This document shows, one piece after another, positions 1,914-19,791 of a stretch of DNA of 64,000 nucleotides (its first letter is position 1; each line of letters starts with the position of its first letter). The translations under genes were made by a program, and so were the position numbers. Origin of the DNA: a virus; IMG/VR virus record IMGVR_UViG_3300008262_002626, positions 1 through 64,000 of that record. The stretch is one strand, 5' to 3'. The notes under the pieces were generated by a model that saw only the letters and a list, made by a program, of their open reading frames with translations, was not told the DNA's origin and made no database searches.

Positions 1914-3122
1914 ATGAAAAAGCGAAATTACACACAAGACACAGTCCGCAAGTTACAAGGCTCATTACAAATTGAGCATACATTAGCAAAACGTGGTGCT
2001 ATCAAACTACGTGAACTACTAGCAAACGAACCATACGTTAACACGCTAGGTGCATACAGTGGACAACAAGCCGTCCAACATGCCAAGGCAGGACTTAAAG
2101 CAATTTATCTATCAGGCTGGCAGGTGGCCGCAGCCGCAAACACAGCAGGACAAACATACCCAGATCAAAGTTTGTATCCTGTAAACTCAGTACCGACAAT
2201 CGTTAAGCAGATTAACAATGCTTTCCGTCGTGCTGATCAAATTGAACATTCAGAAGGCCAAGTAACTACAGATTACTTCTTACCAATCGTAGCTGATGCT
2301 GAAGCAGGCTTTGGTGGTGCATTAAACGCATATGAACTAATGATGGCCATGATTGAAGCAGGTGCAGGTGGTGTACACTTTGAAGATCAGTTATCAAGTG
2401 AAAAGAAATGTGGACACTTAGGTGGCAAGGTTTTAATCCCTACTAGTCAAGCAATACGAAATTTGCAGGCTGCACGGTTAGCCGCAGACGTAGCAGGTGT
2501 TGATACTGTTATCCTAGCACGTACAGATGCCGAGTCAGCAACGCTTATTACCAGCGACCATGATCCACTAGATAAGGATTTTATCATCAATGAACGCACT
2601 GAAGAAGGTTTCTATAAGTTCCGTAATGGATTAGATGCTTGTATTGCTCGCGGGCTTGCTTATGCTCCCTATGCAGATCTACTATGGTTTGAAACTAGTA
2701 CACCTGATATCCAACAGGCCAAGAAGTTCGCAGATGCAATCCACGCACAGTTCCCGGATCAAATGTTGGCTTACAACTGTTCTCCGTCGTTTAACTGGCG
2801 TAAGTTCTTAAGCGAAGAAGAGTGCGAAACATTTCAACATGAACTAGGAGAGCTAGGATACAAGTTCCAGTTCATTACACTAGCAGGTTTCCACTCAGTT
2901 AATCTTGCTACATTTGAACTAGCAGAAGCATACAAGGCACGTGGCATGGCTGGTTATTCAGAAATGCAACAACGTGAGTTTGCCGCACAAGAACGTGGGT
3001 TCACAACTGTTAAACATCAGCGTGAAGTTGGAGTTGGTTATTTTGACTTAATTAGTGAAGCAGTCGGTGCTACCAGTACTGTAGCAAATAAAACTTCTAC
3101 CGAAGCTGATCAGTTCCACTAA
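1914..3122 (+). CDS. aceA: Isocitrate lyase
   Basis: 402 aa. Splits isocitrate into succinate and glyoxylate, the first step of the glyoxylate shunt. The signature KKCGH is at residues 164-168, metal-site Asp in [11 protein letters not shown] at about 128, and FEDQ at 156-159. The C-terminus ends STEADQFH as in bacterial AceA. The N-terminus is about 30 residues shorter than the E. coli enzyme, but all core blocks are present, so it looks complete and active. AAGGAG lies seven bases before the ATG. A desaturase gene follows by 10 bases. No malate synthase is seen in the window, so glyoxylate would feed host enzymes. Family call is firm; its presence in a phage is unusual. Confidence 0.95.
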
Positions 3123-3132
3123 ATAGTAGACT

Positions 3133-3855
3133 ATGTTTACTATTACTTTCTTGCAGGGTTTGCTGATAACCCTGCTACTCACACATCTTACTATTATCAG
3201 CGTAACCTTGTATCTTCATAGATCACAAGCACATCGTGGAGTAGAGTTTCATCCTTGGCTTAATCATTTTTTCCGTTTTTGGATTTGGTTAACAACAGGT
3301 ATGACTACTAAGGCATGGGTAGCAGTACACCGAAAACACCATCAAACTACAGATGTAGAAGGCGATCCACACAGTCCACATGTATTTGGAATTTGGAAAT
3401 TACTATTTGGTGGCTGGAGTTTATATCATGAAGCTACGAAGGACGCGACCTTTGTTATTAAATATGGAGCCGGAACTCCTAAAGATAAACTTGAAATATT
3501 TTATATGAAGTATCACCGGGCAGGATTCTTGTTGATGTTGGTCATAGACCTTGTTCTTTTTGGCCTGCCTGGTATTCTTATTTGGGGTGTTCAAATGATC
3601 TGGATTCCGTTCTGGGCCGCTGGCTTTATTAACGGTATTGGTCATTGGTGGGGATATCGTAACGGAGACACTAACGACTATAGTCGTAATGTTAGTCCTA
3701 TTGGTATTTTAATCGGCGGAGAAGAACTACATAACAATCATCATTTAGATCCTGCTAATCCTAAATTCAGACGTCGTTGGTTTGAATTAGATATCGGTTG
3801 GATCTATATTAAAATACTAGAAGCTTTAAGACTTGCTACCGTTAGGAGTGCATAG
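3133..3855 (+). CDS. Acyl-CoA/acyl-lipid delta-9-type fatty acid desaturase
   Basis: 240 aa, integral membrane. All three histidine boxes of the di-iron desaturase family are present: HRSQAH (29-34), HRKHH (66-70) and HNNHH (200-204), plus GHWWG near 170. Four membrane spans are expected around the boxes. It would introduce a cis double bond in acyl chains and so alter membrane fluidity. It is shorter than most bacterial enzymes (about 300-400 aa), lacking a C-terminal extension but no catalytic block. Probably cotranscribed with aceA; its 3' end overlaps the convergent peptidase gene by 14 bases. Confidence 0.93.
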   Translation: MFTITFLQGLLITLLLTHLTIISVTLYLHRSQAHRGVEFHPWLNHFFRFWIWLTTGMTTKAWVAVHRKHHQTTDVEGDPHSPHVFGIWKLLFGGWSLYHEATKDATFVIKYGAGTPKDKLEIFYMKYHRAGFLLMLVIDLVLFGLPGILIWGVQMIWIPFWAAGFINGIGHWWGYRNGDTNDYSRNVSPIGILIGGEELHNNHHLDPANPKFRRRWFELDIGWIYIKILEALRLATVRSA

Positions 3856-4552
3856 CAAGATAAACTGCCTCCGGAACACGGGTTTTAGTATTTTTACTAT
3901 TCAATAGGACAACAATGCGTTGTCCTATTTTTGTATTCACTAGCATGACGATGCAACCACCGCTGGCTCGAATCCATCCTGTTTTGCTCACAACAAAATC
4001 ATGTGTTGCAATCATTGGGTTTGTATTTCTAAATACTAAAACTTTCTTTTTCTTATGAATCTTTATTTCACTCATCTTGCTGGCTTCGACAATTTCTGTA
4101 TAATTTTCTGCGGCACGTACTAACTTTATCAGATCGTACGCTGTGCTAGAATTCATTACACCTAAACCAGTTGGATCAATAAAACGACTATCTATCATAC
4201 CCAAACTTTTTGCTTTATTATTCATAGCTGTAATACAACTTTGCCGACCGCCTGGATAATGTTTGCACAACTCTTCTGATGCACGATTATCGGAATGAAC
4301 GATAGCCAATTGAATTAGCTCTTTTCTTGTGTATGGTTTTAAAAATTCATCTAAGTCTTGTCTAGCATCTAACACAACCATGACCGTCATTAGTTTGGTT
4401 ATACTGGCAATGCTACGTTGTTGATACATGTTCTCACTTTGAATAACATGCCCGTCGGCATCTGCTACTAACCAACTAGTAGCAGTTATTTTCTCAGCCG
4501 ATGCAGAAAAAGACAGGGATGCTAACAGTAAAAAAAATATATGTTTAATCAT
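3842..4552 (-). CDS. S11-family D-Ala-D-Ala peptidase (PBP7/DacA-like), secreted
   Basis: 236 aa with a signal peptide (residues 1-19, cut near SASA-E). All three serine penicillin-binding motifs are visible: SITK at 50-53 (nucleophile Ser50), SDN at 87-89 and KTG at 190-192. It lacks the C-terminal anchor domain of chromosomal DacA, resembling the shorter PBP7 endopeptidases. It would act in the periplasm on peptidoglycan cross-links or pentapeptides. Its ATG overlaps the stop of the upstream 54-aa gene (TAATG), so it is coupled to the cyclase gene unit. It may aid lysis or wall remodelling around curli secretion. Confidence 0.88.
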   Translation of the reverse strand: MIKHIFFLLLASLSFSASAEKITATSWLVADADGHVIQSENMYQQRSIASITKLMTVMVVLDARQDLDEFLKPYTRKELIQLAIVHSDNRASEELCKHYPGGRQSCITAMNNKAKSLGMIDSRFIDPTGLGVMNSSTAYDLIKLVRAAENYTEIVEASKMSEIKIHKKKKVLVFRNTNPMIATHDFVVSKTGWIRASGGCIVMLVNTKIGQRIVVLLNSKNTKTRVPEAVYLAMHS

Positions 4553-4716
4553 TATCTACAGATGCTAAAAGATTTAATGCCGTTGAGACTAAATTGACTT
4601 AGAAACTTTTCCATATCGTCGTTAACGCTAATCATTTTTGCTGGATACATAAACTTGTATTGTAGCATAAGCCATACATAATAGTCAAACCACCAGTCAA
4701 CCGGAGTATAAATCAT
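4552..4716 (-). CDS. 54-aa coupled small protein
   Basis: The start MIYTPVDWWFDYYVWLMLQY at 4716 overlaps the cyclase stop (ATGA), and its stop overlaps the peptidase start (TAATG). This places it as a translational bridge between the two. The first 30 residues are extremely rich in Trp/Tyr and could sit in a membrane interface. A longer frame from 4746 is rejected because it lies inside the cyclase gene. No known family. Confidence 0.65.
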   Translation of the reverse strand: MIYTPVDWWFDYYVWLMLQYKFMYPAKMISVNDDMEKFLSQFSLNGIKSFSICR

Positions 4717-6755
4717 TTTTCGTGTGCGACAAATTCGCCATTCCAATTATCTGGAAGGTCTTGCTGTTTCATAAATTCGCAACGCTCAATCCAGATTTTG
4801 TAGTACTTGTCCATTTGTCCGCCAAATGTGCCTTTCATTTTCTTACACATTTCTGCGGCTTCGTCAAACTTCTTAGCCTTGTATAGAGATTGCATTTCGT
4901 TATACTTGACTAGGTCTTTACTCCAATCTTCACCGTTAGGTCTTAAGGCTGTATAGATTAAGTCTGCTACACTTTTGCCTTTTGGTTGTAAATTATCGAT
5001 ACACAAGTAAAAGAAATCGTCCTTGGTTCTATTGTAGGTTTCAGCACCAATAATACATAACACACCATAAGCCTTGCAACGTGCTTCTAAACGTGCGGCT
5101 GTTGAAACCATGTCACCTAAGATGTCATAACTATGTCTATCTGTGCTACCCATCTCACCAATAAAGCCTATACCTGTGTTACAACCCCAACCCATAGCCG
5201 CAGGTGGTAATCCCTGTGCTTCCATTTCTTTTGTATAAGCATCAACAGCGTCTAACATTTCAAGTCCAACAGCAACGATTGTACGAGCATGATTAGGATC
5301 TTCAATCGGAGCACCGTGTATGTGCATTGACGCATCTCCTACATACTTAATGACCATACCTTTGTTGTCCATGATTGGGCGGCTGATAGCGTCCATGTAT
5401 CCATTCATATACTTGCCTAGGCCAGCAACGTCATCACCATAGTGTTCACCAATAGGAGTAAAGCCGCGCAAGTCACTGAACATAACACTTACGTCTTTGC
5501 GCACACCACGCTTGATCAAGTCTGGATCTTTCTGTAACATCTCTACTACTTCTTTTGAGCAGTAGCCAGCAAATTGTTTTTTGATTGCCTGCTTCTGTAA
5601 GAATTCACTTACAAACTTAACCCCATAAGTATGCAGAGCGACGAGAATAAGACCAGCCGTGCTTGCCGTCGCGTCTCCCAAGATTCTGAATTCACTGAAA
5701 CCGTACCGACTAGCAACAACACAGGCAACGATCCCACTAACAGTTGTAAAAATACCGACATAGGTCCACCTCGATAATCCAATAATAATTAAACCTAATA
5801 CTAACAAGGTTAGTATTTCCGCTCCATCGGCCCAATCAGGACGTTGGATTACTACACCGTTGGCCATTGTACCGATTACAGCCGCTTGCACTTCATGTGG
5901 CCATACTGCTCCTTTTGCTGTAGGTAATGGATTTCCTATACCTGCGGCGGTTGGTCCTACAATGACTATAGCACCTTCTAAATCTTTAGGCAATTTTAGT
6001 AAACTAAAACTGCGCGACTGCTGACTCCAGTCGATCCACACACGACCTAGTTGATCTGTTGTAATAGGACCAAATTTAGGAATACGCATTTTCTCAATGC
6101 CACCCTCAAACATTTTAACTTGTACTGTTGAATCACCTGCGGCAACACGTAGAGTTTCTAGACTTAGTGATGGATAAAGTTTGCCATCTACTGTAACCAG
6201 TAACGGCATACGACGATTGACACCGTCAACCTCTGGGAGTGTATTTGTAATACCGACACCAGCGGCATTATTTTCTAATACTGGAATATTAGCAATAAGT
6301 CCAGGATACTGGACTATTTGATCTGCGAATTCTGAATTAATTACTGCTGATCCCGGAACACGTGGAGTATTCTTTGTTTTTTGTGCAGGAGTAGAACTTA
6401 AAACTACTGGTGCTTCTTTTAGAGCTTGACCCAGCGCACTGTCGCCACCTGTACGGTCTGCTTCTGGCATGAGTACATTAAGTACAACAAGGCCAGCTCC
6501 CCTCTGATATAAATCTCGTACAATTTTAGCATATTCTGCTCTTGGTAGGGGCCACTGTCCATATTTATTTAAACTCTCTTCGTCAATATTTACAGTTACA
6601 ATATTGTTAAAGGTAGGTTCTTTGGCTGTAATCAGTGTGTCAAAATAACGTAGTCTAACGCTTTCGACAAATGTAGGATCTGCAACACGTATGCCCACTA
6701 CTAACGCTAAGGTTAATAGTGCAGTCCATGGGCTTAAAAGTATTTTTTTTACCAT
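4713..6755 (-). CDS. CHASE2-domain class III adenylate-cyclase-like sensor
   Basis: 680 aa. One N-terminal membrane span (about 8-25), a periplasmic CHASE2 sensor (about 30-310), three closely spaced spans (about 313-380), then a cytoplasmic class III cyclase domain (about 420-600) and a helical tail. Metal-binding aspartates are seen in FSDLRGFT (Asp428) and YVGDASM (Asp474). Lys470 and Asp544 fit adenine recognition, and Arg555 in AARLE is present. The usual catalytic Asn in GDxVN is Ser551, so activity may be weakened or altered. CHASE2 cyclases are often bacterial neighbours of FecR-domain proteins, as here. It probably belongs to the curli-like block. Confidence 0.92.
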   Translation of the reverse strand: MVKKILLSPWTALLTLALVVGIRVADPTFVESVRLRYFDTLITAKEPTFNNIVTVNIDEESLNKYGQWPLPRAEYAKIVRDLYQRGAGLVVLNVLMPEADRTGGDSALGQALKEAPVVLSSTPAQKTKNTPRVPGSAVINSEFADQIVQYPGLIANIPVLENNAAGVGITNTLPEVDGVNRRMPLLVTVDGKLYPSLSLETLRVAAGDSTVQVKMFEGGIEKMRIPKFGPITTDQLGRVWIDWSQQSRSFSLLKLPKDLEGAIVIVGPTAAGIGNPLPTAKGAVWPHEVQAAVIGTMANGVVIQRPDWADGAEILTLLVLGLIIIGLSRWTYVGIFTTVSGIVACVVASRYGFSEFRILGDATASTAGLILVALHTYGVKFVSEFLQKQAIKKQFAGYCSKEVVEMLQKDPDLIKRGVRKDVSVMFSDLRGFTPIGEHYGDDVAGLGKYMNGYMDAISRPIMDNKGMVIKYVGDASMHIHGAPIEDPNHARTIVAVGLEMLDAVDAYTKEMEAQGLPPAAMGWGCNTGIGFIGEMGSTDRHSYDILGDMVSTAARLEARCKAYGVLCIIGAETYNRTKDDFFYLCIDNLQPKGKSVADLIYTALRPNGEDWSKDLVKYNEMQSLYKAKKFDEAAEMCKKMKGTFGGQMDKYYKIWIERCEFMKQQDLPDNWNGEFVAHEK

Positions 6756-6766
6756 ATAATATTTAA

Positions 6767-7063
6767 TTAAATTGAATCACTTAAAAATTTAGAATCTTGG
6801 CCCACTCCGATAATACAGGCTATTTTTGAAGTCATTTGTAATAATGTCCAGAATCCAGTCTTCTCGTTAACAAATAAAGCAAATCTAGTATCGTCTACAG
6901 GATTACGTGCAGTCCATACAGGCTTTTCATTGTAGTTTTCAGTAAGGCTTTTAATAAGAGTTTGTGTATCATCGCAAAGCACGGGTTTACGGCTTTCAAA
7001 TGGTTCGGCATTTGCTAAAGAAACAGTCAAGCTAAGTAGTAACGCTGATAGTAAAGTACGCAT
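6767..7063 (-). CDS. Small secreted protein, unknown
   Basis: 98 aa with a signal peptide (residues 1-19, ending LANA). The mature part begins EPFESRKPVLCDDTQT and contains two cysteines (about 30 and 83), possibly forming a disulfide. It lies between the giant curlin-repeat gene and the cyclase, 11 bases from the latter, so it may be an accessory or ligand-binding component of the same surface system. No family recognised. Confidence 0.8.
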   Translation of the reverse strand: MRTLLSALLLSLTVSLANAEPFESRKPVLCDDTQTLIKSLTENYNEKPVWTARNPVDDTRFALFVNEKTGFWTLLQMTSKIACIIGVGQDSKFLSDSI

Positions 7064-7082
7064 AGCATACTCCTTAAAACTA

Positions 7083-7090
7083 TATTTATT
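7083..7090 (-). promoter_or_regulatory. T4-late-like element AATAAATA
   Basis: AATAAATA on the minus strand, 20 bases before the 98-aa secreted protein gene and overlapping the 3' end of the gene upstream. Its placement matches similar elements before other late-type genes in the window. Confidence 0.4.
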
Positions 7091-9224
7091 GCCTTACTAC
7101 TGTGGTGCAACCTGCAGGATTTGTACAGCTCTGTATAATATTAAATGATTTGCCGCCAGTCTGTTGTAAATCGACATTAGCGGCGCCGCCGGAGTTTGTA
7201 AGATTAATGCTGGCGTTATTAGCAGTAGATCCGCTTTGAGTAACTGTAACTGTATGCCCATTACCTGTTAGCATATTTTCTAAATAATGATTGCCTGTAC
7301 CTTCTTGTACTGCTGTTACAGAATTGTTGCTACCATTTACTGTAGTAAACATAATTTTATTTGCATTATCTTTTTGGTTAGTATTGACAATATTATTGCT
7401 ACCGGTTATAGTAGTCTCTTTAAAATTACTGCTGGTACTATTATTTGATTGTTGTGTAGTAATATTATTATAGGCACCGTTAACATCTAATTTATGATAG
7501 TTAGTTCCAGTCTGTGTTAAATTAATATTATTACTGCCGGACCCCGCGATAGTAGCTTCGGTTGTATTTTTGCCAGCTGATGTAGTCTGTGTCACAGTTA
7601 CATTGTTAGCATTTCCGCTGACCTGATCAATGTACAAATAATTGTTTGAATTTTGACTAGAACCGTTGTTCCAGTTATTAATTCTTCCTTGCTGTTGCGG
7701 TGTTGGCATAACACTGCCTGCACCACTGTTAATAACTTCTTGGCCAGTACCGTTGGTCATTGTGATTGTTCCGCCCTCAACGACTGGTCCTAGGTTAACA
7801 GTAGATCCAGTAATGTTAACCACAGAGGAATTAGAATACACAACTCCTGTTGTATCCACAGTATAGGTAGGAATAGTACCTGTAGTAAATGCACTATTAG
7901 ATATAGTTCTTAGGCCGTCGCCGTAATCCCAATAAAATGTGTTACCAAATCCGCCTTCTGTATTCCAATACCATGCTTCAATATTATATGTTTGTCCTGC
8001 TACAACATCCATCCAACCACTGCTAGTATAACCAAATATAGCCTGATATCGAACAGTTTCATTTTGATTGATGACAGTATTTCCATTTATACGTAAAACA
8101 AATCCGTCATCGGTGTTGTTGTAAAAATACAATCTGTAAACAGTTCCTGCAGGCTTTGATGAAGTTATTGGTGCTGTTATAGTTCCCGAGTATCTAATAA
8201 CTGTACCATCGTTAGATCCAAACCAACTGTTGTCGTTGTTTGGTAAATCAGAATTGGTTGCAATAAAAATGCCGTTACTAGTAACCCCACTGTTTACTGT
8301 GTTGCCATAGTCCGATATATTAGTAGACGGTGTTCTGTAAGTGAAGTTCCAAGTACATATTCCGAGGAAACAATTATAATTTTTGGGATCATATCTCCAT
8401 ACTTGAAAATTAAGACCTCGCTGTATGGTTTGAGAGGATGTTACAGCAGTACCGTTTGATTCAATAGTTGTTCCAGATACGCCTGTTGTTGTAACAGTAT
8501 TAATAGGTGTGTTAATAGTTGTTAGTGTATTTCCAACAATAGTATTAGTTGTCACTGTGCTAGATACCTTTGTCTGATATAGTGATTCTGTACCATTACT
8601 GCTTGTACTAGTTCCGTCGCTATAAGTTGTAGTAGTTACAGGTGTACGATAAACATAAGTTGTATTACCACTTGTTACTGTTCTTGTTGTATAGGTTGTA
8701 GTTGTACCTGTTACAGTAACTACTGGAGCACTAGGTTGTGCTGTTTGACCGGACGTTAAAGGTGTTGTACTTGCCCACGTATAATTAGACAAGTCGGTTG
8801 ATGATACAGAAGTATCCATATTTGGAAAGGACGCACTAGCTCCGTAACTATAACCTTGCGCTGTACTAATGACATTACCAAAAAAACCTGAACCTATATA
8901 AAATATAGCGCCATTTCCCAAAGCAGTAATATCGCCATAGTCATGAACAACTTTTGCCAAGGTTCCGTTGCTGTTATATAAACCTAATCCATATTGACCG
9001 GGATTAGTTGTACTAGGAAAGAATTGAAAATATTGTCCGCTAGATACTGTAACAGTTTGAAAGTTTTTATCATACGGTGCTATAAAATTACTGGCATATA
9101 ATGTTGTTCCACTCCAATAATACTGCACATCAAAAATTTGGTTGACGCCAAATTTACCGTCGGTGATGGCTGCAAAAGCATTTGAACACATCAGCGTGAG
9201 AAGAAATAAAATTCGTTTTATCAT
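7086..9224 (-). CDS. Giant secreted curlin-repeat protein with PA14-like domain
   Basis: 712 aa. It has a signal peptide (1-18), a Thr/Ser-rich low-complexity linker (about 150-280), and a region around 290-460 with PA14-like features (VYRLYFYNNTDDGFVLRING, then a Trp-rich strand pattern). The C-terminal part from about 530 has repeated Asn/Gln/Thr blocks of the type GSNNIVNTNQ and GNGHTVTVTQSG. Those blocks match the spacing of curlin repeats that stack in amyloid fibres. It would be exported through the CsgG-like pore nearby and could combine fibre formation with sugar binding. Its start overlaps the FecR gene stop (ATGA). Confidence 0.8.
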   Translation of the reverse strand: MIKRILFLLTLMCSNAFAAITDGKFGVNQIFDVQYYWSGTTLYASNFIAPYDKNFQTVTVSSGQYFQFFPSTTNPGQYGLGLYNSNGTLAKVVHDYGDITALGNGAIFYIGSGFFGNVISTAQGYSYGASASFPNMDTSVSSTDLSNYTWASTTPLTSGQTAQPSAPVVTVTGTTTTYTTRTVTSGNTTYVYRTPVTTTTYSDGTSTSSNGTESLYQTKVSSTVTTNTIVGNTLTTINTPINTVTTTGVSGTTIESNGTAVTSSQTIQRGLNFQVWRYDPKNYNCFLGICTWNFTYRTPSTNISDYGNTVNSGVTSNGIFIATNSDLPNNDNSWFGSNDGTVIRYSGTITAPITSSKPAGTVYRLYFYNNTDDGFVLRINGNTVINQNETVRYQAIFGYTSSGWMDVVAGQTYNIEAWYWNTEGGFGNTFYWDYGDGLRTISNSAFTTGTIPTYTVDTTGVVYSNSSVVNITGSTVNLGPVVEGGTITMTNGTGQEVINSGAGSVMPTPQQQGRINNWNNGSSQNSNNYLYIDQVSGNANNVTVTQTTSAGKNTTEATIAGSGSNNINLTQTGTNYHKLDVNGAYNNITTQQSNNSTSSNFKETTITGSNNIVNTNQKDNANKIMFTTVNGSNNSVTAVQEGTGNHYLENMLTGNGHTVTVTQSGSTANNASINLTNSGGAANVDLQQTGGKSFNIIQSCTNPAGCTTVVRQ

Positions 9225-10330
9225 TTTTGTATTAAGGTAATAATAGTATTACCTCCCTGATTAACACGATTTTTAAATTCTAAACTACCCTGTTGTTGAT
9301 AGATTGTTGAGTTTTGTGTTAATGGAGTGGTTACGCATTGTACATCTGCACCATTATCTCTACACAAAGTTATGTTAGGGTCCTCTTTAACAACAACTAT
9401 ACCGGACGATTTTTTATAGTCCGGTAATACCGGATCAACTGGTTCTAGAAATTTTTCATCTAGTGCATTTCCTATTATGTCAAATAGGCTAGCAAGGAAC
9501 GCACTATCTAAAAAGTTTTGTTGTAATTTATTTTCATAGAAAGTATTGGCCTGCATGTCTAAGAAATTCTCAAGGCCTTTTTCTTTTAAAAAATCAAAAT
9601 CTAACGGATTAAACATCTTTTGTTGTTCTTGTACAGCACGTTTGATCTCTGCCGGAGGACTAACAATCAACAGATTACTGATAGCCATCTCACTTAGATT
9701 TAAAACTTTAGGTGGTGTAGGTGGGTGACTTCTACTAGTTACTTTAGTGACTTGGAACGGCTGATTTAATATTACTGTACCCATTTCGTTACTGACTTCA
9801 ATTGTTCCAGTTTTACAACTGGCTTCTATATCTTTCACTGTACGAGTCGGGCGATCATTTGGACAACTTGGCAATAAAACAATAGTACTAGCACCAAGTT
9901 CGTCAACTGTAGCTGTAAAGTCTGTACCTCGAACTGCTACTGTAGCAGTGGGCGTATTAAGGGCAACATTCTGTGGACTGTTTTTGGCTATTTGTCCGCT
10001 GGCATAACGAACAGTACCGAGTGCAATTTTAGCACCTAGCTTTCCACTTTTACTCTTGGGGTCATACACAAAATCGTCAATTACAAGTTTACTATTTTCG
10101 TTTACCTGTACTTTTGTATCATCTTCAAAGGTTATTCCGACTTTTCCCTGTAGAGTCTTGATAGCATCGTTCATCTCTACGCCAGTCCCTTTGGATCCCG
10201 TTAGTGTCGAATTCTGCCTGGTTATACTGGGAGGAGTATTTACTAGTTCCGTTACCTTTCCTATCGCGGCGTCGGCTTTCCACGATATACTCAGCAACGG
10301 AACGCATAGTATTACCATCCATAGTTTCAT
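9221..10330 (-). CDS. Secreted FecR-domain protein
   Basis: 369 aa with a signal peptide (1-21). Residues about 22-180 form the FecR domain, with the signatures MNDAIKTLQGKVGITFEDD, ASGQIA and TPTATVAVRGTDF. The rest is unassigned and carries Asn/Gln-rich ends (SLEFKNRVNQGG) like the curlin proteins. In bacteria such soluble FecR proteins are periplasmic and often sit beside CHASE2 cyclases or surface polymers. Here it lies between two curlin-repeat genes and is coupled to the second. It may be a periplasmic adaptor or sensor. Confidence 0.87.
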   Translation of the reverse strand: MKLWMVILCVPLLSISWKADAAIGKVTELVNTPPSITRQNSTLTGSKGTGVEMNDAIKTLQGKVGITFEDDTKVQVNENSKLVIDDFVYDPKSKSGKLGAKIALGTVRYASGQIAKNSPQNVALNTPTATVAVRGTDFTATVDELGASTIVLLPSCPNDRPTRTVKDIEASCKTGTIEVSNEMGTVILNQPFQVTKVTSRSHPPTPPKVLNLSEMAISNLLIVSPPAEIKRAVQEQQKMFNPLDFDFLKEKGLENFLDMQANTFYENKLQQNFLDSAFLASLFDIIGNALDEKFLEPVDPVLPDYKKSSGIVVVKEDPNITLCRDNGADVQCVTTPLTQNSTIYQQQGSLEFKNRVNQGGNTIITLIQK

Positions 10331-10339
10331 GCAACCCTC

Positions 10340-11314
10340 TTAGTTTTTCTGTAAAATTGTATATGTATTTCCTGATCCACTAATTGCAAGATTTGTTAAA
10401 TTACTAACAGTACCTTGCTGTGTTACACCGATAGTATTTGAACTTCCAGTTACTGCCATAGTTGTATGATGCCCTGTACCAGCACCACCTGTTTGTGATA
10501 GTGTGATACCGTTACTACTGCCGGTTACTGTTATACTAGCATAATGATCAAACAATCCAGTCTGTGTTACATCTGTAGTGTTGCCTGACCCGTTAACATT
10601 AACTATTACTTGTGCGCCGGTAGAACCGTATGCGCTCTGTGTTATGTTAGTAGTATTTGTTGCGCCAGTTGTAGTTACACTAACTTGACCCTTATTGCCA
10701 GTCATGTTAAGTGTTGTTGAATTGCCGCCACCTAGTGTATTGCTTACTGTTGCTACAGTTTCGTCTGCATTGATAGTTCCTGTGAAGCTATTGTTTGCGC
10801 CGCCTGACTGTGTAACTGATAGATTGTTACTTGTGCCTGTCATGTTTAATGTAGTAGTTGCTCCACCACCTGCTTGTGTAATACCTACTACATTTCCGCT
10901 TGCTGTGCCCAAGCCGTTGTTATTAATATTGATATAACCTGTATTTCCGCCGCCACTAACTACATAGTTTAAGTTAACACCGACATTAGCATAGCCAGAA
11001 ACTGTTCCGCCTTGTGTACTATTAACACCTAAAGATAATACGTTTGTCGCACCAGTTTGCTCAATATTGATTGTCTGTGCGTTTCCTGTTAACTTTGCTG
11101 GATCTGTAGTGCCGCCAGCATTACCGTTTGTTAAAATACCTTTTACTTTGTTTCCAGATCCGTCCTGTGTCATAGTAATAGTACTGTTATCACCCGACTG
11201 TTCTATGTAAATGCTGTTGTCAGCCGCGTGACCCAGTGTTGCCATTGCAGACAACACCAGAATAGTGAGTACTTTTCTCGACAACCCACCAGCGCCTGTT
11301 CTACTTGTTTCCAT
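10340..11314 (-). CDS. Secreted curlin-repeat (CsgA/CsgB-like) amyloid subunit
   Basis: 324 aa. An N-terminal signal region (residues 12-31, ending GHAA) is followed by SIYIEQSGDNSTITMTQDGS, the first of more than ten irregular curlin-type repeats with the pattern G.N....TQ.G. Gln and Asn recur at the spacing used in cross-beta stacking. AAGGAG lies nine bases before the ATG. It lies directly downstream of csgF and csgG homologues, supporting export by that pore. It is longer than E. coli CsgA (151 aa). Confidence 0.85.
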   Translation of the reverse strand: METSRTGAGGLSRKVLTILVLSAMATLGHAADNSIYIEQSGDNSTITMTQDGSGNKVKGILTNGNAGGTTDPAKLTGNAQTINIEQTGATNVLSLGVNSTQGGTVSGYANVGVNLNYVVSGGGNTGYININNNGLGTASGNVVGITQAGGGATTTLNMTGTSNNLSVTQSGGANNSFTGTINADETVATVSNTLGGGNSTTLNMTGNKGQVSVTTTGATNTTNITQSAYGSTGAQVIVNVNGSGNTTDVTQTGLFDHYASITVTGSSNGITLSQTGGAGTGHHTTMAVTGSSNTIGVTQQGTVSNLTNLAISGSGNTYTILQKN

Positions 11315-11360
11315 TTTTTTCTGCTCCTTGGTACTTTATTATTTTTATAAGTGTACCATA

Positions 11361-12575
11361 TTATTTTACTGCGTCTTTCGCTATCCACCCTTTCTTGCCG
11401 TTCTCTAATTCAATGTATAAAAGAACACCTTCTTCTTTTACTACTTTTACTACTTGACCGGATTCAAGAACGGCAATAATTGTTGAACCCGATTTACTAC
11501 TTTCTCTTACGTTACTCTTACCCTTTGAAGTTACTGTTTTTTCTTTTGTATCTTCGACGGGCTTGTTCTCAACTTTGTTTCCTTCAGGGCCTTTTCCGTC
11601 ATTGGACTGCTGTAGTGCGGTTGCAGGCCCGGAGGTTCCTTGGGATGGCGTAACGGTTTGTGATTGAACCAACTCATCTCGTTTCTCCTCAGGTTTTTTG
11701 ATTTCTGATGAAATCACAGGTTGCTTAGATTCTTCTTTTGCCGGAACAGCTGGTGGCAATGGTGCTTGTGCTTCTTGTTGAAGTTTAAAACCCCAGATAC
11801 CTTTACGCTGTCCTTCTTTGATTAATTCAACAACTGCCATTTCTGTAGCAGCCTTAACTGCGTATGTTCCTGGCTCATTGATATTCATACCTGCTTCTGC
11901 TTCAAAAGCCTTTGTTCCAGCATCATAAAATTTTAATGCTGTTACACTATCTGCAGAACTTAAAATAGTTTTTTGTACTGTAACGCTGGCCAACACTTTG
12001 CCGGTATTTACGCTAACTGCTCGTAAACTGACAGTAACTGTGTCTGTACTCCACTGTGTTTGTTTTCCGATACCGAAAATTCGTTGTCCGATACCGCCGC
12101 TGGTCGTGCTTTGATCGTAACCAACTATGCCACCTTCAAGAATGATGCCTGCAAACTGCATCGGTAATAAAGGTCTAGCATCTTTACCCTCATATGCTTC
12201 TCTCATCTGGCGAATAATTAATCGCTCTTTAGTTAAATTATCAATACCAACACGTTCGACAACTTCAAACCATTCTCCACGTCCAACATTTTGTAGAGCT
12301 TGGATTAAGAATGTTTCTGCACCTTGCGTAACTGCGGTTGATAGGCTAGCGATATTACTCTGTGGTCTACGTTGACCTGTTTTATCTGTAAAACTGTAAA
12401 CTGCTACACTTAATGGTTTTCCGGCTTGTGGTCCGGGAATAGTGTCAAACTCTTTCTTGACTCCTTTCATTTGTGTAGTGACTTCAGGTTCTCTATCCAA
12501 TACTCCGGTTGCCTGCATCATAGCACAACCAGAAAGCATACTCAATACTGCTAGGGATAATATCGTTTTTTTCAT
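11361..12575 (-). CDS. csgG: CsgG-type outer-membrane curli secretion lipoprotein with SH3 tail
   Basis: 404 aa. Lipobox LSGC at 14-17. The CsgG domain (about 30-265) carries SVAVYSFTDKTGQRR, WFEVVERVGIDNLTKER and the transmembrane-hairpin region before WSTDTVTVSLRAV. A linker rich in Lys/Pro/Glu follows (about 270-345). The last 60 residues form an SH3_3-like domain (SNVRESSKSGSTIIAVLESG), which standard CsgG lacks and which could bind peptidoglycan. It forms the export channel for curlin-repeat proteins. csgF lies four bases upstream. Confidence 0.92.
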   Translation of the reverse strand: MKKTILSLAVLSMLSGCAMMQATGVLDREPEVTTQMKGVKKEFDTIPGPQAGKPLSVAVYSFTDKTGQRRPQSNIASLSTAVTQGAETFLIQALQNVGRGEWFEVVERVGIDNLTKERLIIRQMREAYEGKDARPLLPMQFAGIILEGGIVGYDQSTTSGGIGQRIFGIGKQTQWSTDTVTVSLRAVSVNTGKVLASVTVQKTILSSADSVTALKFYDAGTKAFEAEAGMNINEPGTYAVKAATEMAVVELIKEGQRKGIWGFKLQQEAQAPLPPAVPAKEESKQPVISSEIKKPEEKRDELVQSQTVTPSQGTSGPATALQQSNDGKGPEGNKVENKPVEDTKEKTVTSKGKSNVRESSKSGSTIIAVLESGQVVKVVKEEGVLLYIELENGKKGWIAKDAVK

Positions 12576-12578
12576 GAT

Positions 12579-13124
12579 TTAGTTCCCTGGCATTTGGAAT
12601 GACTGTAATGGCACATAGACACAACTCATTCCAGTGTCTGTACATGCGGCCGTACTTGGATTAGTAGCAGTAGGATCTGCAATTTTCATCATTATGCAAT
12701 ATCCGTACGCAGTGGAACAGTTTGCATCATCTGCACTACTAACTCTATTCCAACTAATGAAGTTTCCTTGGAAGTCAATACTTCCAGTGCAATTTGTGTT
12801 TGTACTTGCGGTACAATTATTATTAGCAAACATAGCAGTTGCTACGTTTTGGCTAATCTGTGCATAGATACGTGATTCTAAATTACTGACAAATTTAGCT
12901 AAGTTTGTATTTTTCTTATCGGCGGCTGCTTTGTCGATTTCTGCTTGTAATTTGTCTGCACGTTCTTTTTGTCGTGTTCTTTCTTGATTTTCAATCGTTA
13001 ATACGTGACTACTATAACCAACACCATTGAAGGAAGGACTCTTAAACTGAAAGTCACCCAATGGAGCGGCTACTGCCACAACTGGCAATATGAATAACGC
13101 TATTATTTTTGGTAGTTTGGACAT
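12579..13124 (-). CDS. csgF: CsgF-like curli assembly protein
   Basis: 181 aa with a signal peptide (1-19). The mature start APLGDFQFKSPSFNGVGYSS matches the CsgF N-terminus (FQFRNPNFGG type), the part that plugs into the CsgG pore. The C-terminal half carries six cysteines in a region unlike E. coli CsgF (138 aa), so this part is divergent. Gene order csgF-csgG-curlin supports the call. Confidence 0.85.
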   Translation of the reverse strand: MSKLPKIIALFILPVVAVAAPLGDFQFKSPSFNGVGYSSHVLTIENQERTRQKERADKLQAEIDKAAADKKNTNLAKFVSNLESRIYAQISQNVATAMFANNNCTASTNTNCTGSIDFQGNFISWNRVSSADDANCSTAYGYCIMMKIADPTATNPSTAACTDTGMSCVYVPLQSFQMPGN

Positions 13125-13187: not shown

Positions 13188-14705
13188 TTATGTTGCTATA
13201 CCTGCATTCTTTTTTACTGTATCAAGTTCGTCTGGTTCTGCAGGTTCTTGTGGAATAATTTGTGGTTGATCTTGTTGTGGTTGAACTGCTGTAGGTGTTG
13301 TATTGCTAGGTGGTAAACTTGGAGTAAGTTTAGTCTTGGCCTGCATAACTGTTAATTCTGATAATAACGGTTCCATAGTAATGGAATTCCAAATCTTTTT
13401 ATTATCACCAGTAGCATGATATCCCATCTTAACTAAACTTTTACCTGAGTTTTTATCGAAGATGTTTATTTCAGGTCTTGGCTCTCCGTTGTTACTTACA
13501 CCTTCTCTATAGGAAACAGTTAGGTCAATATTACCTGCAACTAATTTTTGCATTAGACCCTTAAAATTGTGTACTGTACTGATGCCTTTTTTTCCTAGTT
13601 GCACAAGACGAACTGTGTCATCACCTTTTGTAGCATGATGTACAATTACTGATGCTATTCGAGATATAACTCCAGCTTCGTCTCTAGCGTCAAATCCTGC
13701 TAATTGTTCTTTTAGTTGACGAGTTGCTTCTTTATAGGCCTTAGTCCAAAAGGCTACTTTAGTGGTTGGAGTCCTTTTTGGTGTATCGATAGTAACACCA
13801 AGAGGTCCGAAAAAGTTTACAGTACTTTGCCATATCCCCTTACTGCTTTTAACATCAGATGTTATTGATCCTGCGCCTTGTTGTCCAAATTGACTACTAC
13901 CTGCTTTTAAACTAATCTTGAGATTTTTCAAAGGTCTAACTTCACCGTTGGCTGTTCTCACAAACGCTTCGATGTCTGTCTTTTTGCCTTTTTGATCACT
14001 CATTCCGTCGCTTTGGACCCAGATAGCATCAACCTTTCCATTCTTATAAAAGTAGTCTGCGTATTTGTCTATCTGTCCGCTATTAGCATAATGAACAGCA
14101 CTAGGTAACAAGGGACTATATGTTTCCCAGAAACTAGGAGACTGCATAAACACTTTTGTAGGTTCACGGACTGCTACTGTAAATTTAATAATGTCAGCAA
14201 TTTTACTATTCTTATCAGCTACTGTATATGTACTATTTCCTTGGCTGATTGCTTTATTAAGACAATCAATCACGTCTTTATCTGTAATGTCTTCTATACT
14301 ATTGCTACCGCGCTTGATTAGTTTAGCCACGACAGCCGCACTTAAAACAGGCTCTGAGAGATCTCCTACATTCCCTTCTGTACTGCCTTTTTGTCCTGGG
14401 GCATGTACTAGACCGCTTTGTATGCTATTATCGGTTCCAACAATATCTATGTATGTTTTATTTGGACGTTTGAAACTTCTAACAACGCTGCCAGTCCCAA
14501 ATTGTATTTTAGGAGTTCTTGCAGGAGAACTTTTAATCCATTCTAAATCTTCGCTGGGATCAAAATCAGGTACTATCTTTTTAATAGCAGTTAATAGGGA
14601 CTTGCCCTTCGCTGACGATGCTCCTACACGAACTTTGTGTCCGTAGGAATACTTGTCTTTTCTGGTAAAAATGCTGGCTTCGCCGATAATTTCAAAGGTC
14701 TTCAT
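13188..14705 (-). CDS. Large protein with T4-type capsid-targeting N-terminus
   Basis: About 505 aa from ATG 14705 (a TTG frame from 14738 runs through a late-promoter motif and is disfavoured). The N-terminus MKTFEIIGEASIFTRKDKYS closely resembles the T4 capsid-targeting peptide (MKTYQEFIAE type, cleaved after I-x-E). The middle is a mixed alpha/beta protein with no family I recognise; the C-terminal 50 residues are Pro/Gln-rich. It is likely an internal head protein packaged with the DNA. It lies between the bilin genes and the curli block, 63 bases from csgF. Confidence 0.7.
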   Translation of the reverse strand: MKTFEIIGEASIFTRKDKYSYGHKVRVGASSAKGKSLLTAIKKIVPDFDPSEDLEWIKSSPARTPKIQFGTGSVVRSFKRPNKTYIDIVGTDNSIQSGLVHAPGQKGSTEGNVGDLSEPVLSAAVVAKLIKRGSNSIEDITDKDVIDCLNKAISQGNSTYTVADKNSKIADIIKFTVAVREPTKVFMQSPSFWETYSPLLPSAVHYANSGQIDKYADYFYKNGKVDAIWVQSDGMSDQKGKKTDIEAFVRTANGEVRPLKNLKISLKAGSSQFGQQGAGSITSDVKSSKGIWQSTVNFFGPLGVTIDTPKRTPTTKVAFWTKAYKEATRQLKEQLAGFDARDEAGVISRIASVIVHHATKGDDTVRLVQLGKKGISTVHNFKGLMQKLVAGNIDLTVSYREGVSNNGEPRPEINIFDKNSGKSLVKMGYHATGDNKKIWNSITMEPLLSELTVMQAKTKLTPSLPPSNTTPTAVQPQQDQPQIIPQEPAEPDELDTVKKNAGIAT

Positions 14706-14710
14706 ACGAA

Positions 14711-14718
14711 TATTTATC
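14711..14718 (-). promoter_or_regulatory. T4-late-like element GATAAATA
   Basis: GATAAATA ends five bases before ATG 14705, leaving no room for a Shine-Dalgarno sequence. Either this mRNA is nearly leaderless or the motif is fortuitous. Similar elements precede many other late-type genes here. Confidence 0.4.
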
Positions 14719-15409
14719 GTATTTCTGGGAACAGACAATCCTGGATAAAAACACGTACATCTTCCTCGTCTAAACCTAAACTTGTCATAACACGGGGTGT
14801 ATGGGGGTTTTGTTTTTGATTTTGTGCGTAATAGTTCTGTTCAAAAGTAGTGTCTGCAACCATATTATTAGTTTGACCCACAGTTTCTAGGTAGTGTTCA
14901 ATACCCTTTTCAGCCATAGCAAATATCTGATCTAGTTCTGTTTCATCTTGCACATTGCCTGCGGCAACCATGCTAGGACTAAAAATACGTTTTGCCCAAT
15001 CAGGAAGCTCACGTTCTCTGCGCCATTCTAGTTTCGATGCTTCATTAGCGAACCAATCACACATAGGATGTTCTTTATCAGAGGTAGGACTATAATCGTA
15101 AAAACAGCCAGTGATCTTACGAGCACCGGCAATAACATCAAAACCAAATATAGGAGCAGGATTGTGTATATGTGGGAAGATGCAACAGTGCATCATCCAC
15201 AGTCCTTTTGTTTCTCGGGCATCTACTACATCAACGTGGGCTCTTCGATAATTACCTGATGACCATACACGATTAACCCATCCTGGTTGATTAAATCGAT
15301 TCATTCCAGGTTCGAATACTTCTATTCCAGTATCGTTAAATGATTTTTCTAAGAGATGCTGGATACTGATCAATGTATCCCAAACTTTACTCTGCTGGTT
15401 GTTCAACAT
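14714..15409 (-). CDS. Ferredoxin-dependent bilin reductase (PebS/PcyX/PcyA family)
   Basis: About 231 aa. The central block PIFGFDVIAGARKITGCFYD and the following YSPT are hallmarks of this family, which reduces biliverdin to phycobilins using ferredoxin. The Asp in FGFDV corresponds to the conserved catalytic Asp. The length matches phage PebS/PcyX (about 230 aa). It starts inside the heme oxygenase gene, overlapping by 23 bases, so biliverdin maker and user are coupled. Which bilin is made cannot be told from sequence alone; PcyX of non-cyanobacterial phages is the closest concept. Confidence 0.9.
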   Translation of the reverse strand: MLNNQQSKVWDTLISIQHLLEKSFNDTGIEVFEPGMNRFNQPGWVNRVWSSGNYRRAHVDVVDARETKGLWMMHCCIFPHIHNPAPIFGFDVIAGARKITGCFYDYSPTSDKEHPMCDWFANEASKLEWRRERELPDWAKRIFSPSMVAAGNVQDETELDQIFAMAEKGIEHYLETVGQTNNMVADTTFEQNYYAQNQKQNPHTPRVMTSLGLDEEDVRVFIQDCLFPEIR

Positions 15410-15947
15410 CAACGATTTCCATCATCTGTTCGAAGGTCTTAGCGGCAAAGTCAAAGCATACCTTTGCTTCTTCTGCTAGACTGTCATCAAGTTTGGTACG
15501 GATTATTTCTTTAATTTTTTCAGGTTCGTCGCCAAACTGATAATACTTACCTTGGCCCGGAACACGTTTAGCAATCATCTGTCCGCCGCTAAGGTCTCCC
15601 ATATGGCGAACATAGATATGAGCCATTAGTTTGTTAGGATCGTTTTTGATGCTTAGAATATACTTTAAGTATTCGTCAACTACGGGAAAGATTTTAGGTT
15701 GACCATAGTCTTCTTTCCATAGCTCTAGAAAATCTTCTAGGATAGCCGGTGCTCTACGAATCTCAGGAATATCTTGGAATAGACCGTGCGGCATAGCACA
15801 CACTTCTAACACTTCGTACATAAGATGTTGATTCTTGAGATATGTTGCGTAGATCTTAGGATCAACGTGTCCGGAAAATAAGACTTTAACAAAAGGCCTA
15901 GTTTCTGCTCTTCGATGTTGTTCCCAAGTTAGTTCTTTTAAACTCAT
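15387..15947 (-). CDS. ho1: Heme oxygenase
   Basis: 186 aa. Opens heme to biliverdin, CO and iron. Proximal His is in EQHRRAE (His11), and the distal helix HMGDLSGGQMIAKRV is fully conserved. It is shorter than cyanobacterial HO1 (about 240 aa), as usual for phage forms. The stop region overlaps the bilin reductase start, and its own start overlaps the clpS stop (ATGA), giving a clpS-ho1-bilin reductase operon. Confidence 0.95.
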   Translation of the reverse strand: MSLKELTWEQHRRAETRPFVKVLFSGHVDPKIYATYLKNQHLMYEVLEVCAMPHGLFQDIPEIRRAPAILEDFLELWKEDYGQPKIFPVVDEYLKYILSIKNDPNKLMAHIYVRHMGDLSGGQMIAKRVPGQGKYYQFGDEPEKIKEIIRTKLDDSLAEEAKVCFDFAAKTFEQMMEIVDVEQPAE

Positions 15948-16246
15948 TCTTCCTCCAACTTAATTTGTAAAGGAAACCCGTTACTTCTAGCTTGGTTAGT
16001 TGCTTCAACTGCTTTCGCTTCGGCAATCTCAAAACTGTAAACTCCGGCGATACCGCTACCTGTTTCGTGTACAGTTAGCATAATCTCTTGAGCACTATCT
16101 ATTGAGTGTCTAAATATTTCCATTAATATGGAAATAACAAACTCCATAGGAGTCGAGTCATCATTAAGAAGTATAACCTTCCAACGCTTAGGTTCGCTTA
16201 CAGTAACCTTAATCTTTTCATCTAGTTGGATATCTGTGCTAGGCAT
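15944..16246 (-). CDS. clpS: ClpS adaptor of the ClpAP protease
   Basis: 100 aa, the normal length. The N-degron pocket and ClpA-binding signatures are present: WKVILLNDDSTPMEFV (about 22-37) and HETGSGIAGVYSFEIAE (about 60-76). ClpS delivers N-end-rule substrates to ClpA. A phage copy could redirect host proteolysis. It precedes the heme oxygenase with a four-base overlap; upstream lies a strong hairpin and hsp20. Confidence 0.93.
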   Translation of the reverse strand: MPSTDIQLDEKIKVTVSEPKRWKVILLNDDSTPMEFVISILMEIFRHSIDSAQEIMLTVHETGSGIAGVYSFEIAEAKAVEATNQARSNGFPLQIKLEEE

Positions 16247-16795: not shown

Positions 16796-16824
16796 ATTAT
16801 AAGACTGTTAGTCTTTTTTATCAA
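16796..16824 (-). promoter_or_regulatory. sigma70 promoter of hsp20
   Basis: TTGATA, 17 bases, TATAAT on the minus strand, with the -35 inside the last codons of dnaK. The short hairpin AAGACT/AGTCTT lies in the spacer. It would give hsp20 its own transcript. Confidence 0.75.
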
Positions 16825-18703
16825 CCTCTTTGAACTCCGCATCTACGGTTTGTTCGCCTTGGGTTGTTTGGCTTTGAGCGGCAGACTCAGAGGCTTGCTT
16901 TTTGGCAAACACTGGACTAGCCGATTCAAATAGTTTTTGTACTGCGGTGTCGATCGCAGACTTATCTTCGCCTTTGATAGCATCCTCGACTGCTGTTTTT
17001 GCAGTTTCAAATAAAGACTTTTCTTCGTCTGACAATTGATCCTTGTAAGTATCAAAATCTTTGTTAATCGAATGAACAGCACCTTCTGCTTGGTTGCGAG
17101 CTTCAATAAGTTCCTTAGCCTTCTTATCAGCTTCGGCATTTTCTTCTGCCTCTCGAACCATACGTTGTATTTCTGCTTCTGAAAGTCCTGAATCCGATTT
17201 AATAGTAATTTTATTTTCTTTACCAGTCGACTTGTCCTTAGCACTGATGTTCATGATACCGTTCGCGTCAATGTCAAAAGTAACTTCGATCTGGGGCATG
17301 CCGCGTGGAGCAGGATTAATACCGTCTAATTTAAATTCGCCAAGTGTTTTATTGTATTTGAATAACTCACGTTCGCCTTGTGCTACTTTAATATCAACAG
17401 CTGGTTGATTATCTTCTGCTGTTGAGAATGTTTGACTGGCCTTAGTTGGGATTGTTGTGTTCTTTTGAATCAACTTAGTAAACACACCTCCCATTGTTTC
17501 GATGCCTAGAGATAATGGAGTAACGTCTAGCAATAGAACGTCTGTCTTATCTCCTCCCAACACCGCACCTTGGATGGCAGCACCGGCAGCAACGGCCTCG
17601 TCTGGATTGACGTCTTTACGTGGAGCCTTACTAAACAGTTTCTCAACTGCTTCCTGTACTTTAGGCATACGTGTTTGACCACCGACAAGGATAACTTCAT
17701 CAATGTCGCTTGCGCCTACACCCGCATCTTTTAGTGCTTGTTTACAAGGATCGATAGACCGCTGGATTAGATCTTCGACCATTGATTCAAACTTAGCACG
17801 GGTAATAGTAACATTCATGTGCTTAGGCCCAGATGAGTCGGCTGTAATATAAGGTAAATTTACTGCTGTTGATTGTGTGCTTGACAATTCAATCTTAGCT
17901 TTTTCTGCGGCATCTTTTAGACGCTGTAATGCCAACATGTCTGTCTTTAGATCAATACCATTTTCTTTCTTAAACACTTCAACAAGATGATCCATAATAC
18001 GTTGGTCAAAGTCTTCGCCGCCTAGGAATGTATCGCCATTAGTTGACAACACTTCGATTTGTTTATCGCCTTCGACGTTGGCAATTTCAATAATACTGAT
18101 GTCGAATGTACCGCCACCGAGGTCATATACAGCAACCTTGCGGTCTTTCTTATCTTGTTTATCAACACCGTAGGCTAGAGCAGCCGCAGTTGGTTCGTTG
18201 ATAATACGTAATACTTCCAAACCTGCAATCTTACCTGCATCTTTAGTTGCTTGTCTTTGACTGTCGTTAAAATATGCAGGAACTGTGATGACAGCTTTTG
18301 TGACTGCTGTACCAAGATAGTCTTCAGCAGTCTTTTTCATCTTGCGTAGAACTTCTGCGCTAACCTGTGGAGGTGCAAGTTCTTTATCTTGTGCCTTGAT
18401 CCAAGCATCACCGTTCTTTGCTTCTGTAATTTCATAAGGCATTAAATCAATATCCTTCTGAACTTCTTTTTCAGAAAACTTACGGCCAATTAAACGCTTG
18501 GCGGCATAGATTGTATTTTTTGGGTTTGTGACTGCTTGTCGTTTTGCTGTTGCACCTACTAAAATTTCTTCTGGTGTGTACGCAACAATTGATGGTGTTG
18601 TACGGGCGCCTTCTGAGTTTTCAATAACTTTAGCTACACCGTTTTCTAGGATGGCTACGCAACTATTTGTGGTGCCAAGGTCAATACCTATGATTTTGCT
18701 CAT
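16808..18703 (-). CDS. dnaK: DnaK (Hsp70) chaperone
   Basis: 631 aa from ATG 18703, chosen because AAGGAG sits at the right distance (an upstream start at 18727 is discarded). Full-length Hsp70: the ATPase domain opens [19 protein letters not shown], with [14 protein letters not shown] and [12 protein letters not shown] blocks. The substrate domain contains [17 protein letters not shown], and the tail ends EFKEVDKKD, close to the bacterial EEVKDKK end. Length is near E. coli DnaK (638). No dnaJ or grpE lies in the window, so host co-chaperones would be used. A complete dnaK on a phage genome is rare. Confidence 0.96.
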
Positions 18704-18710
18704 ATCTGTT

Positions 18711-18763
18711 CTCCTTATGTTAAGCAAGAATATTGTAGAACCCTATTGGCGTCCTACAATATT
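18711..18763 (-). promoter_or_regulatory. ROSE-like leader of dnaK (candidate RNA thermometer)
   Basis: A perfect ten-pair hairpin AATATTGTAG/CTACAATATT (18729-18763) is followed by CTTGCTT (18722-18728) facing AAGGAG (18711-18716), the same plan and box sequence as in the hsp20 leader. TTA/TAA can extend the stem around an ACA loop. Confidence 0.55.
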
Positions 18764-18770
18764 ATTTATA
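18763..18770 (-). promoter_or_regulatory. T4-late consensus TATAAATA before dnaK
   Basis: A perfect TATAAATA on the minus strand, overlapping the guaC stop codon and abutting the leader hairpin of dnaK. It suggests that dnaK is expressed late in infection by the gp55-type sigma factor. Confidence 0.6.
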
Positions 18771-19791
18771 CCTGTTTTTCAAAAATATTATTATACTGGG
18801 TGTTTACTCTAACGAATGTAGTACACTTAGATAACTGCTTTAGAGTCGGAGCACCGACGTATGTACATGTACTACGTAACCCTCCTAGGATATCTAGTAC
18901 AGTATCTTCTACAGGGCCTTTGTATTTTACCTGTACAGTACGGCCTTCACTGCTACGATAACTAGCAACACCGCCGTGATGTTTGTCCATAGCAGTATCA
19001 GAGCTCATACCGTAAAATGTAACCTTACCGTCTTTGACTTCACCGCCACCTTCATCATGCCCAGCTAGCATGCCGCCTAGCATTACAAAGTCCGCACCAG
19101 CCCCGAAAGCCTTAGCAACATCACCAGGGCAAACACATCCGCCGTCAGCAATAATATGCCCGCCAAGACCATGAGCGGCATCGGCACACTCAATAATAGC
19201 ACTAAGCTGTGGGTAGCCCACACCAGTTTGGATACGAGTAGTACAAACGCTACCAGGGCCAATGCCCACTTTAACAATGTCCGCGCCACGTAAAATTAAC
19301 TCCTGTGTCATGTCTCCGGTAACCACATTACCGGCAATAATAGTTTTATCTGGATGTTTAGTTCTAACACGTTCAACAAAATCGCCAAAGTGTTCACTAT
19401 AACCATTTGCAACATCTATACAAATAAATTTTATTGTCGGTAAAACACTTAAGGTGATATTTAATACTTCAAATGCTTTGTCGCCTGTGCCTGTAGAAAC
19501 TGCCAGATATTCTTCATTCAGATCATTAATGTGATCAAACCAGTCTCTTACTTCAAGACTTTTAACTAGACAAGTAAACATATTATGATTTTGCAATGAC
19601 TTGGCCATAGCAAATGTGCCTACGCCGTCCATGTTACTGGCCATGATAGGCACACCGATCCATTCTTGTTGACTGTGTCTAAATTTATATTTTCGATTAA
19701 GCTCAACATGCTGTCTACTTGCGAGCTTACTACGTTTCGGGCGAATTAAAACATCTTTAAAATCTAAAAGAATTTCATTTTCAATACGCAT
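18766..19791 (-). CDS. guaC: GMP reductase
   Basis: 341 aa, IMPDH/GMPR fold. The catalytic loop [11 protein letters not shown] puts the nucleophile at Cys183. [13 protein letters not shown] and [20 protein letters not shown] are GMPR-type, and there is no CBS insert as in IMP dehydrogenase. It converts GMP to IMP with NADPH, letting the phage rebalance purines toward adenine nucleotides. The next gene upstream is an exonuclease. IMP dehydrogenase is the alternative but less likely. Confidence 0.92.

Follow-up and report, generated by a model that had tools for sequence, protein, structure and literature searches.

To what end does a phage carry the genes of a curli-type (type VIII) secretion system? 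The question is posed by a block of such genes in a stretch of DNA from a large aquatic phage, 64,000 bases long and called the window here, which spans bases 1–64000 of the 91,076-base IMG/VR virus record IMGVR_UViG_3300008262_002626. The phage origin of the record is evident from its genes for ribonucleotide reductase, helicases, primase, baseplate hub, and virion proteins. The role of curli in phages is disputed in the literature, with sibling capture, a superinfection shield, and a pore for uptake or lysis all under discussion. In our reading, to which we assign a probability of roughly 0.6, the phage-encoded operon would make the infected cell export an adhesive amyloid fiber. This is favored over a lysis pore because the second curlin protein of the block, cur2, belongs to a family with swappable lectin-type domains.

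Organization and conservation of the block

All genes of the block lie on the minus strand, from 13124 to 3842, in the order csgF (transcribed first), csgG, a curlin-repeat gene (cur1), a FecR-domain gene, cur2, a gene for a protein of 98 amino acids (aa), a CHASE2–class III cyclase gene, and an S11 peptidase gene (last; Table 1). A first-pass annotation of the same DNA had listed these genes apart from the 98-aa one; each of those listed is in place on that single strand, and all but cur2 have their families confirmed by Pfam. The several start–stop overlaps it described come down to one within the block, the 4 nucleotides (nt) shared by the FecR gene and the 712-aa cur2 gene; successive intergenic distances from csgF to the S11 gene are 3, 46, 9, −4, 22, 11, and 160 nt. 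With such short gaps and the overlap, the first seven genes, csgF to the cyclase, look like one operon.

A scan of IMG/VR with CsgG yielded 56 related loci, many of these relatives being fragments, and gene order was counted in the 35 loci, two GenBank phages included, whose sequence continues for 7.5 kb or more downstream of csgG. The FecR gene occurs in all 35 and the cyclase in 34; the order csgF-csgG-cur1-FecR-cur2-cyclase is kept in 34/35, which excludes a chance arrangement. Among the relatives, the median csgF–csgG spacing is 1 nt, and the FecR gene overlaps the next curlin gene by a median of 4 nt. The cultured phages HTVC008M and Melnitz show the identical gene order, and most of the block is already annotated in their GenBank entries. 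The block also occurs on three contigs (L060, L061, and L062) filed under a Rhodobacteraceae and a Pirellulales metagenome-assembled genome; these seem to be phage sequences that were binned into bacterial genomes.

Phage curli clusters have been described before: in pelagimyophages, with sibling capture as the proposed function (Zaragoza-Solas, 2020; PMC7029224), and in Melnitz, where csgA/B were thought to be missing and a lysis-timing pore was proposed (Buchholz, 2022; PMC9004378). Curli genes accompanied by FecR, a histidine kinase, and adenylate cyclase are known from pelagiphage podo- and myoviruses, in a module said to stem from Alphaproteobacteria and to have passed from one phage family to another (Wittmers, 2022; PMC9599517). 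Because that study describes curli, FecR, and cyclase together in pelagiphages, the block is of an already published kind. It shares with the published module the order CsgF, CsgG, curlin repeat, FecR, second curlin repeat, and adenylate cyclase, as well as the lack of CsgE, CsgC, and CsgD, but differs in the SH3 domain of its CsgG, the probable lectin-type domain of cur2, and the peptidase after the cyclase. Before csgF, where a histidine kinase is reported for podoviruses, the window has a gene (13188–14738) without a Pfam match; a histidine kinase is likewise not annotated there in the myophages HTVC008M and Melnitz, whose CsgG is 42% identical to that of the window and lacks SH3.

A second curlin protein with interchangeable domains

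In cur2, a PA14-like region at about residues 330–455 is followed by a curlin-repeat solenoid at about 528–712. When 20 family members are aligned, the curlin stretch at the C-terminus is conserved, and the N-terminal parts are not homologous. The family profile matches a solved curlin-repeat protein (8c50) at 6.8e-7, and the modeled fold of cur2 resembles the PA14 sugar-binding domains of a Marinomonas adhesin and of the yeast Epa/Flo adhesins (probability 1.00, E ~0.01). Across the family set, Pfam assigns curlin repeats to eleven proteins, F5/8 type C to four, and PA14 to one; PA14 is present in two further members tested, that of L022 (3.5e-10) and the second curlin protein of HTVC008M (2.7e-6). 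The PA14-like character ascribed to the 712-aa protein in the first pass is supported by its fold and by clear Pfam matches in homologs; its own domain falls under the Pfam threshold.

Two N-terminal domain types in the family pair with PA14, with F5/8-C, or with neither. On a tree of the curlin tails of 31 phages, the domain classes are scattered as widely as shuffled labels would be (13 changes, against a mean of 13.3), with the proviso that the class "none" may conceal unrecognized domains. We take the binding domains of cur2 to be exchanged on a conserved fiber anchor, as these comparisons would suggest. Neither PA14 nor lectins figure in the main text of Wittmers (2022) or of Buchholz (2022), and the modularity of cur2, like the cyclase Asp/Ser pattern and the joining of two bacterial units described below, appears to be unreported in the literature examined.

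What follows the second curlin gene and precedes the cyclase varies among relatives: one (L028:14535–17159) has genes for a metallophosphatase, a RimK-type ligase, and a glycosyltransferase, three (L041, L047, and L023) have genes of similar sizes, and another (L043) has an autotransporter. Additional surface genes such as the last count in favor of the adhesive fiber.

Fiber, coat, or pore

The locus contains a CsgG pore homolog, whose profile matches solved E. coli CsgG at 8e-69, together with CsgF and curlin-repeat subunits (cur1 by Pfam, cur2 by its family profile), the components by which we recognize curli, or type VIII, secretion. CsgE was not taken as defining, being absent from phage and alphaproteobacterial modules (Wittmers, 2022; PMC9599517). 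CsgG and CsgF would form the outer-membrane pore, and cur1 the basic curlin subunit of a fiber onto which cur2 would dock via its curlin tail, presenting a domain of carbohydrate-binding type (PA14 in this phage, discoidin or none in others). The SH3 extension of CsgG, with SH3_3 or SH3_4 counterparts in several relatives, may contact the wall in the periplasm. In the periplasm, the FecR protein would pair with the CHASE2 domain located there and relay the state of the envelope or fiber to the cytoplasm, where a host receptor would be the target of any cyclic nucleotide. The benefit, the least certain step, may be to keep new hosts or particles close by or to protect the cell from other phages.

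Several observations weigh against an exported adhesive fiber. The AlphaFold2 (AF2) model of cur2 has a mean predicted local distance difference test score of 65, with modest confidence over the PA14 region; Melnitz gave no cell clumping (Buchholz, 2022; PMC9004378); CsgE was found in 0/14 phage records, this one included, with a positive E. coli control; a search of 20 related phage records found no cyclic-nucleotide-binding receptor; and, with Ser in place of Asn551, the cyclase may have little or no activity. As neither CsgE nor a receptor was found, the host would supply the gating and whatever receiver there is. The full system with its own signaling envisaged in the first pass is partly supported: the block is present and conserved as a unit, but neither CsgE nor a receptor was found, the cyclase lacks the transition-state Asn, and no anti-sigma domain was recognized in FecR.

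Two of these observations, the missing CsgE gate and the lack of clumping in Melnitz, lend themselves to a different explanation, in which CsgG and CsgF act as a gated pore for lysis timing or uptake, depolarizing the cell or importing molecules without any fibers (Buchholz, 2022, PMC9004378; raised as an alternative in Zaragoza-Solas, 2020, PMC7029224). It gains from the presence of CsgG and CsgF throughout and from the SH3 extension and the S11 peptidase of some relatives, which fit wall contact. However, curlin-repeat genes do occur in Melnitz, contrary to the reported absence of csgA/B, as well as in the window, and a pore needs neither a lectin-bearing, rapidly swapping curlin protein nor FecR. 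We consider a fiberless pore improbable: interchangeable sugar-binding-type domains on the second fiber protein are a direct reason to prefer extracellular binding. These domains also support the earlier proposal of surface fibers that bind neighbors or block superinfection, with the purpose itself a suggestion from sequence.

A special case of the fiber is a superinfection exclusion coat, in which the fibers would mask receptors and the lectins would hold the coat on the cell's own glycans. Its anatomy is identical to that of the adhesive fiber, and the variable position before the cyclase holds surface-modifying genes in relatives (glycosyltransferase, RimK, carbamoyltransferase). Yet self-binding is indistinguishable from binding neighbors, and fast swapping suits varied targets either way; the coat is conceivable, if doubtful.

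A proposed sensor pair joined to curli

The FecR protein comprises an N-terminal signal-like segment, the FecR fold, a helical linker, and a small C-terminal beta module, and its AF2 model resembles PupR-type periplasmic signaling domains and a cell-surface anchoring domain. A Pfam FecR domain and a fold matching the PupR signaling domain could befit an iron/citrate anti-sigma regulator of the operon, and a regulatory role has been proposed (Wittmers, 2022; PMC9599517). However, a signal-like segment precedes the FecR domain where a cytoplasmic anti-sigma N-terminal region and a membrane segment would be expected, Pfam identifies no anti-sigma domain (FecR is the only family common to the 15 members scanned), and the record has no sigma-70 region 2 match, the weak ones in HTVC008M and Melnitz lying away from the block. 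Judged by its domains, the protein does not look like an anti-sigma factor, and such a regulator is very unlikely here. The C-terminal 20 residues were considered as a curlin repeat and rejected: their matrix score was no higher than that of control proteins, Pfam gave no match, and the model has the small beta module at this site.

The sensor genes have a bacterial distribution of their own. Among 289 alphaproteobacterial genomes, a phage-like cyclase occurs in 94, FecR in 102, and CsgG in 4, under thresholds that differ between the three counts. A hand count places FecR no more than 3 kb from the cyclase in at least 23/94 genomes, compared with a rough chance estimate of <2; Pfam confirmed three FecR neighbors of cyclases, one being from Oricola and two from the 289-genome sample. 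The majority of CHASE2 cyclases in Campylobacterota are clustered with a FecR outer-membrane protein (PMC9239204). The bacterial clusters of both groups thus resemble the phage module in placing a CHASE2–class III cyclase near a FecR-domain protein, but have no link to curli. Conversely, the curli loci of Alpha- and Gammaproteobacteria share CsgF, CsgG, and curlin repeats with the phages, which lack CsgE, whereas in the bacterial loci examined, a few of which were short, csgG had neither FecR nor the cyclase as a neighbor; in the two sampled genomes with matches to both, csgG and the cyclase lie on separate contigs. Since FecR and CHASE2 cyclases are neighbors in many bacteria without curli, a curli unit and an independent bacterial FecR–CHASE2 unit have most likely come together in the phage module, and these separate distributions suggest how it was assembled.

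The cyclase itself has a distinctive active site. The metal-binding D428 and D474, together with the substrate residue Lys470 and the transition-state Arg555, are kept in 38/38 phage cyclases. In alignments with solved cyclases, CyaB among them, residue 551 falls at the transition-state Asn, whose role is well established for class III cyclases. The window cyclase has Ser at this position and Asp at the base-recognition residue 544, and the two substitutions occur together in the same 35/38 phage cyclases, that of Melnitz among them. The exceptions, L022, L051, and HTVC008M, have Asn at 551 with Thr or Ser at 544 (Ser in HTVC008M), as do all 33 alphaproteobacterial homologs compared. On the cyclase tree the phages fall on one side, with HTVC008M branching first and L022 and L051 nested within the Asp/Ser group; the simplest reading would be one switch to Asp/Ser inside the phages, followed by one coupled return. 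Invariance elsewhere speaks against decay. If genuine, the coupled site would imply a changed product, a changed rate, or signaling without catalysis. The combined proposal, of lectin-bearing adhesive phage curli whose domains are exchanged like tail-fiber tips and of a phage-evolved, coupled Asp/Ser cyclase site departing from the canonical Ser-or-Thr/Asn, is put forward tentatively, as something less probable than its adhesive fiber component.

Features of the block and neighboring genes

Table 1. Genes of the curli block in the window, in order of transcription
Gene	Coordinates	Strand	Product	Evidence
csgF	12579..13124	-	CsgF family, pore-associated chaperone/neck protein, signal-like N-terminus	Pfam CsgF 2.6e-7; PHROG 35372; 3 nt before csgG
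csgG	11361..12575	-	Outer-membrane pore lipoprotein, lipobox LSGC, C-terminal SH3_3 extension	Pfam CsgG 3.1e-46, SH3_3 3.7e-7
cur1	10340..11314	-	Curlin-repeat fiber subunit, CsgA/B-like	Pfam Curlin_rpt 1e-6; NCBIfam CsgB/CsgA weak; in nearly all relatives
FecR gene	9221..10330	-	FecR-domain protein, probably exported	Pfam FecR 1.1e-8; PHROG 37870; AF2 model
cur2	7086..9224	-	712 aa: N-terminal domain, linker, PA14 lectin-like domain, curlin-repeat solenoid	Fold search, profile match, relatives
98-aa gene	6767..7063	-	98-aa protein, signal-like N-terminus	Homologs at same site in ~5 close relatives; no match in Pfam, PHROG, or NCBIfam
Cyclase gene	4713..6755	-	CHASE2–class III nucleotide cyclase	Pfam CHASE2 6.5e-42, Guanylate_cyc 1.7e-14; PHROG 35576 4.8e-187
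S11 gene	3842..4552	-	S11 D,D-peptidase, SxxK/SxN/KTG motifs visible	Pfam Peptidase_S11 1e-38; PbpG-type NCBIfam below cut-off

The first-pass annotation had joined the curli genes, FecR, the CHASE2 cyclase, and the S11 peptidase in one block. The conserved unit ends with the cyclase: S11 homologs occur in 12 relatives (upstream in two), and this scarcity, the 160-nt gap, and a promoter-like site within that gap (4688–4659) mark the peptidase as an accessory neighbor, possibly with its own promoter. A T4-type late promoter, TATAAATA, was considered as the driver of the block and rejected, with 3 matches in the window, below chance expectation, and none at the block.

The window has no tRNA genes. 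Next to the block, an isocitrate lyase gene (1914–3122, plus strand; NCBIfam PRK15063, 692 bits) adjoins a fatty-acid desaturase gene (3133–3855, plus strand); the lyase, 63% identical to a protein of Phage C48C1, was found in just 3 related loci. A pair of similar small membrane proteins, of which one is weakly YvrJ-like, is encoded at 400–891 and 1365–1769 on the plus strand; with homologs in 23–28 relatives, they are possible holin-type proteins. On the minus strand, heme oxygenase and ClpS genes overlap by 4 nt at 15387–16246 (homologs in 45 and 51 relatives, respectively), followed by a full-length DnaK/Hsp70 gene at 16808–18727 (homologs in 37 related loci) and an IMP dehydrogenase/GMP reductase-type gene at 18766–19791, present in 9 relatives.

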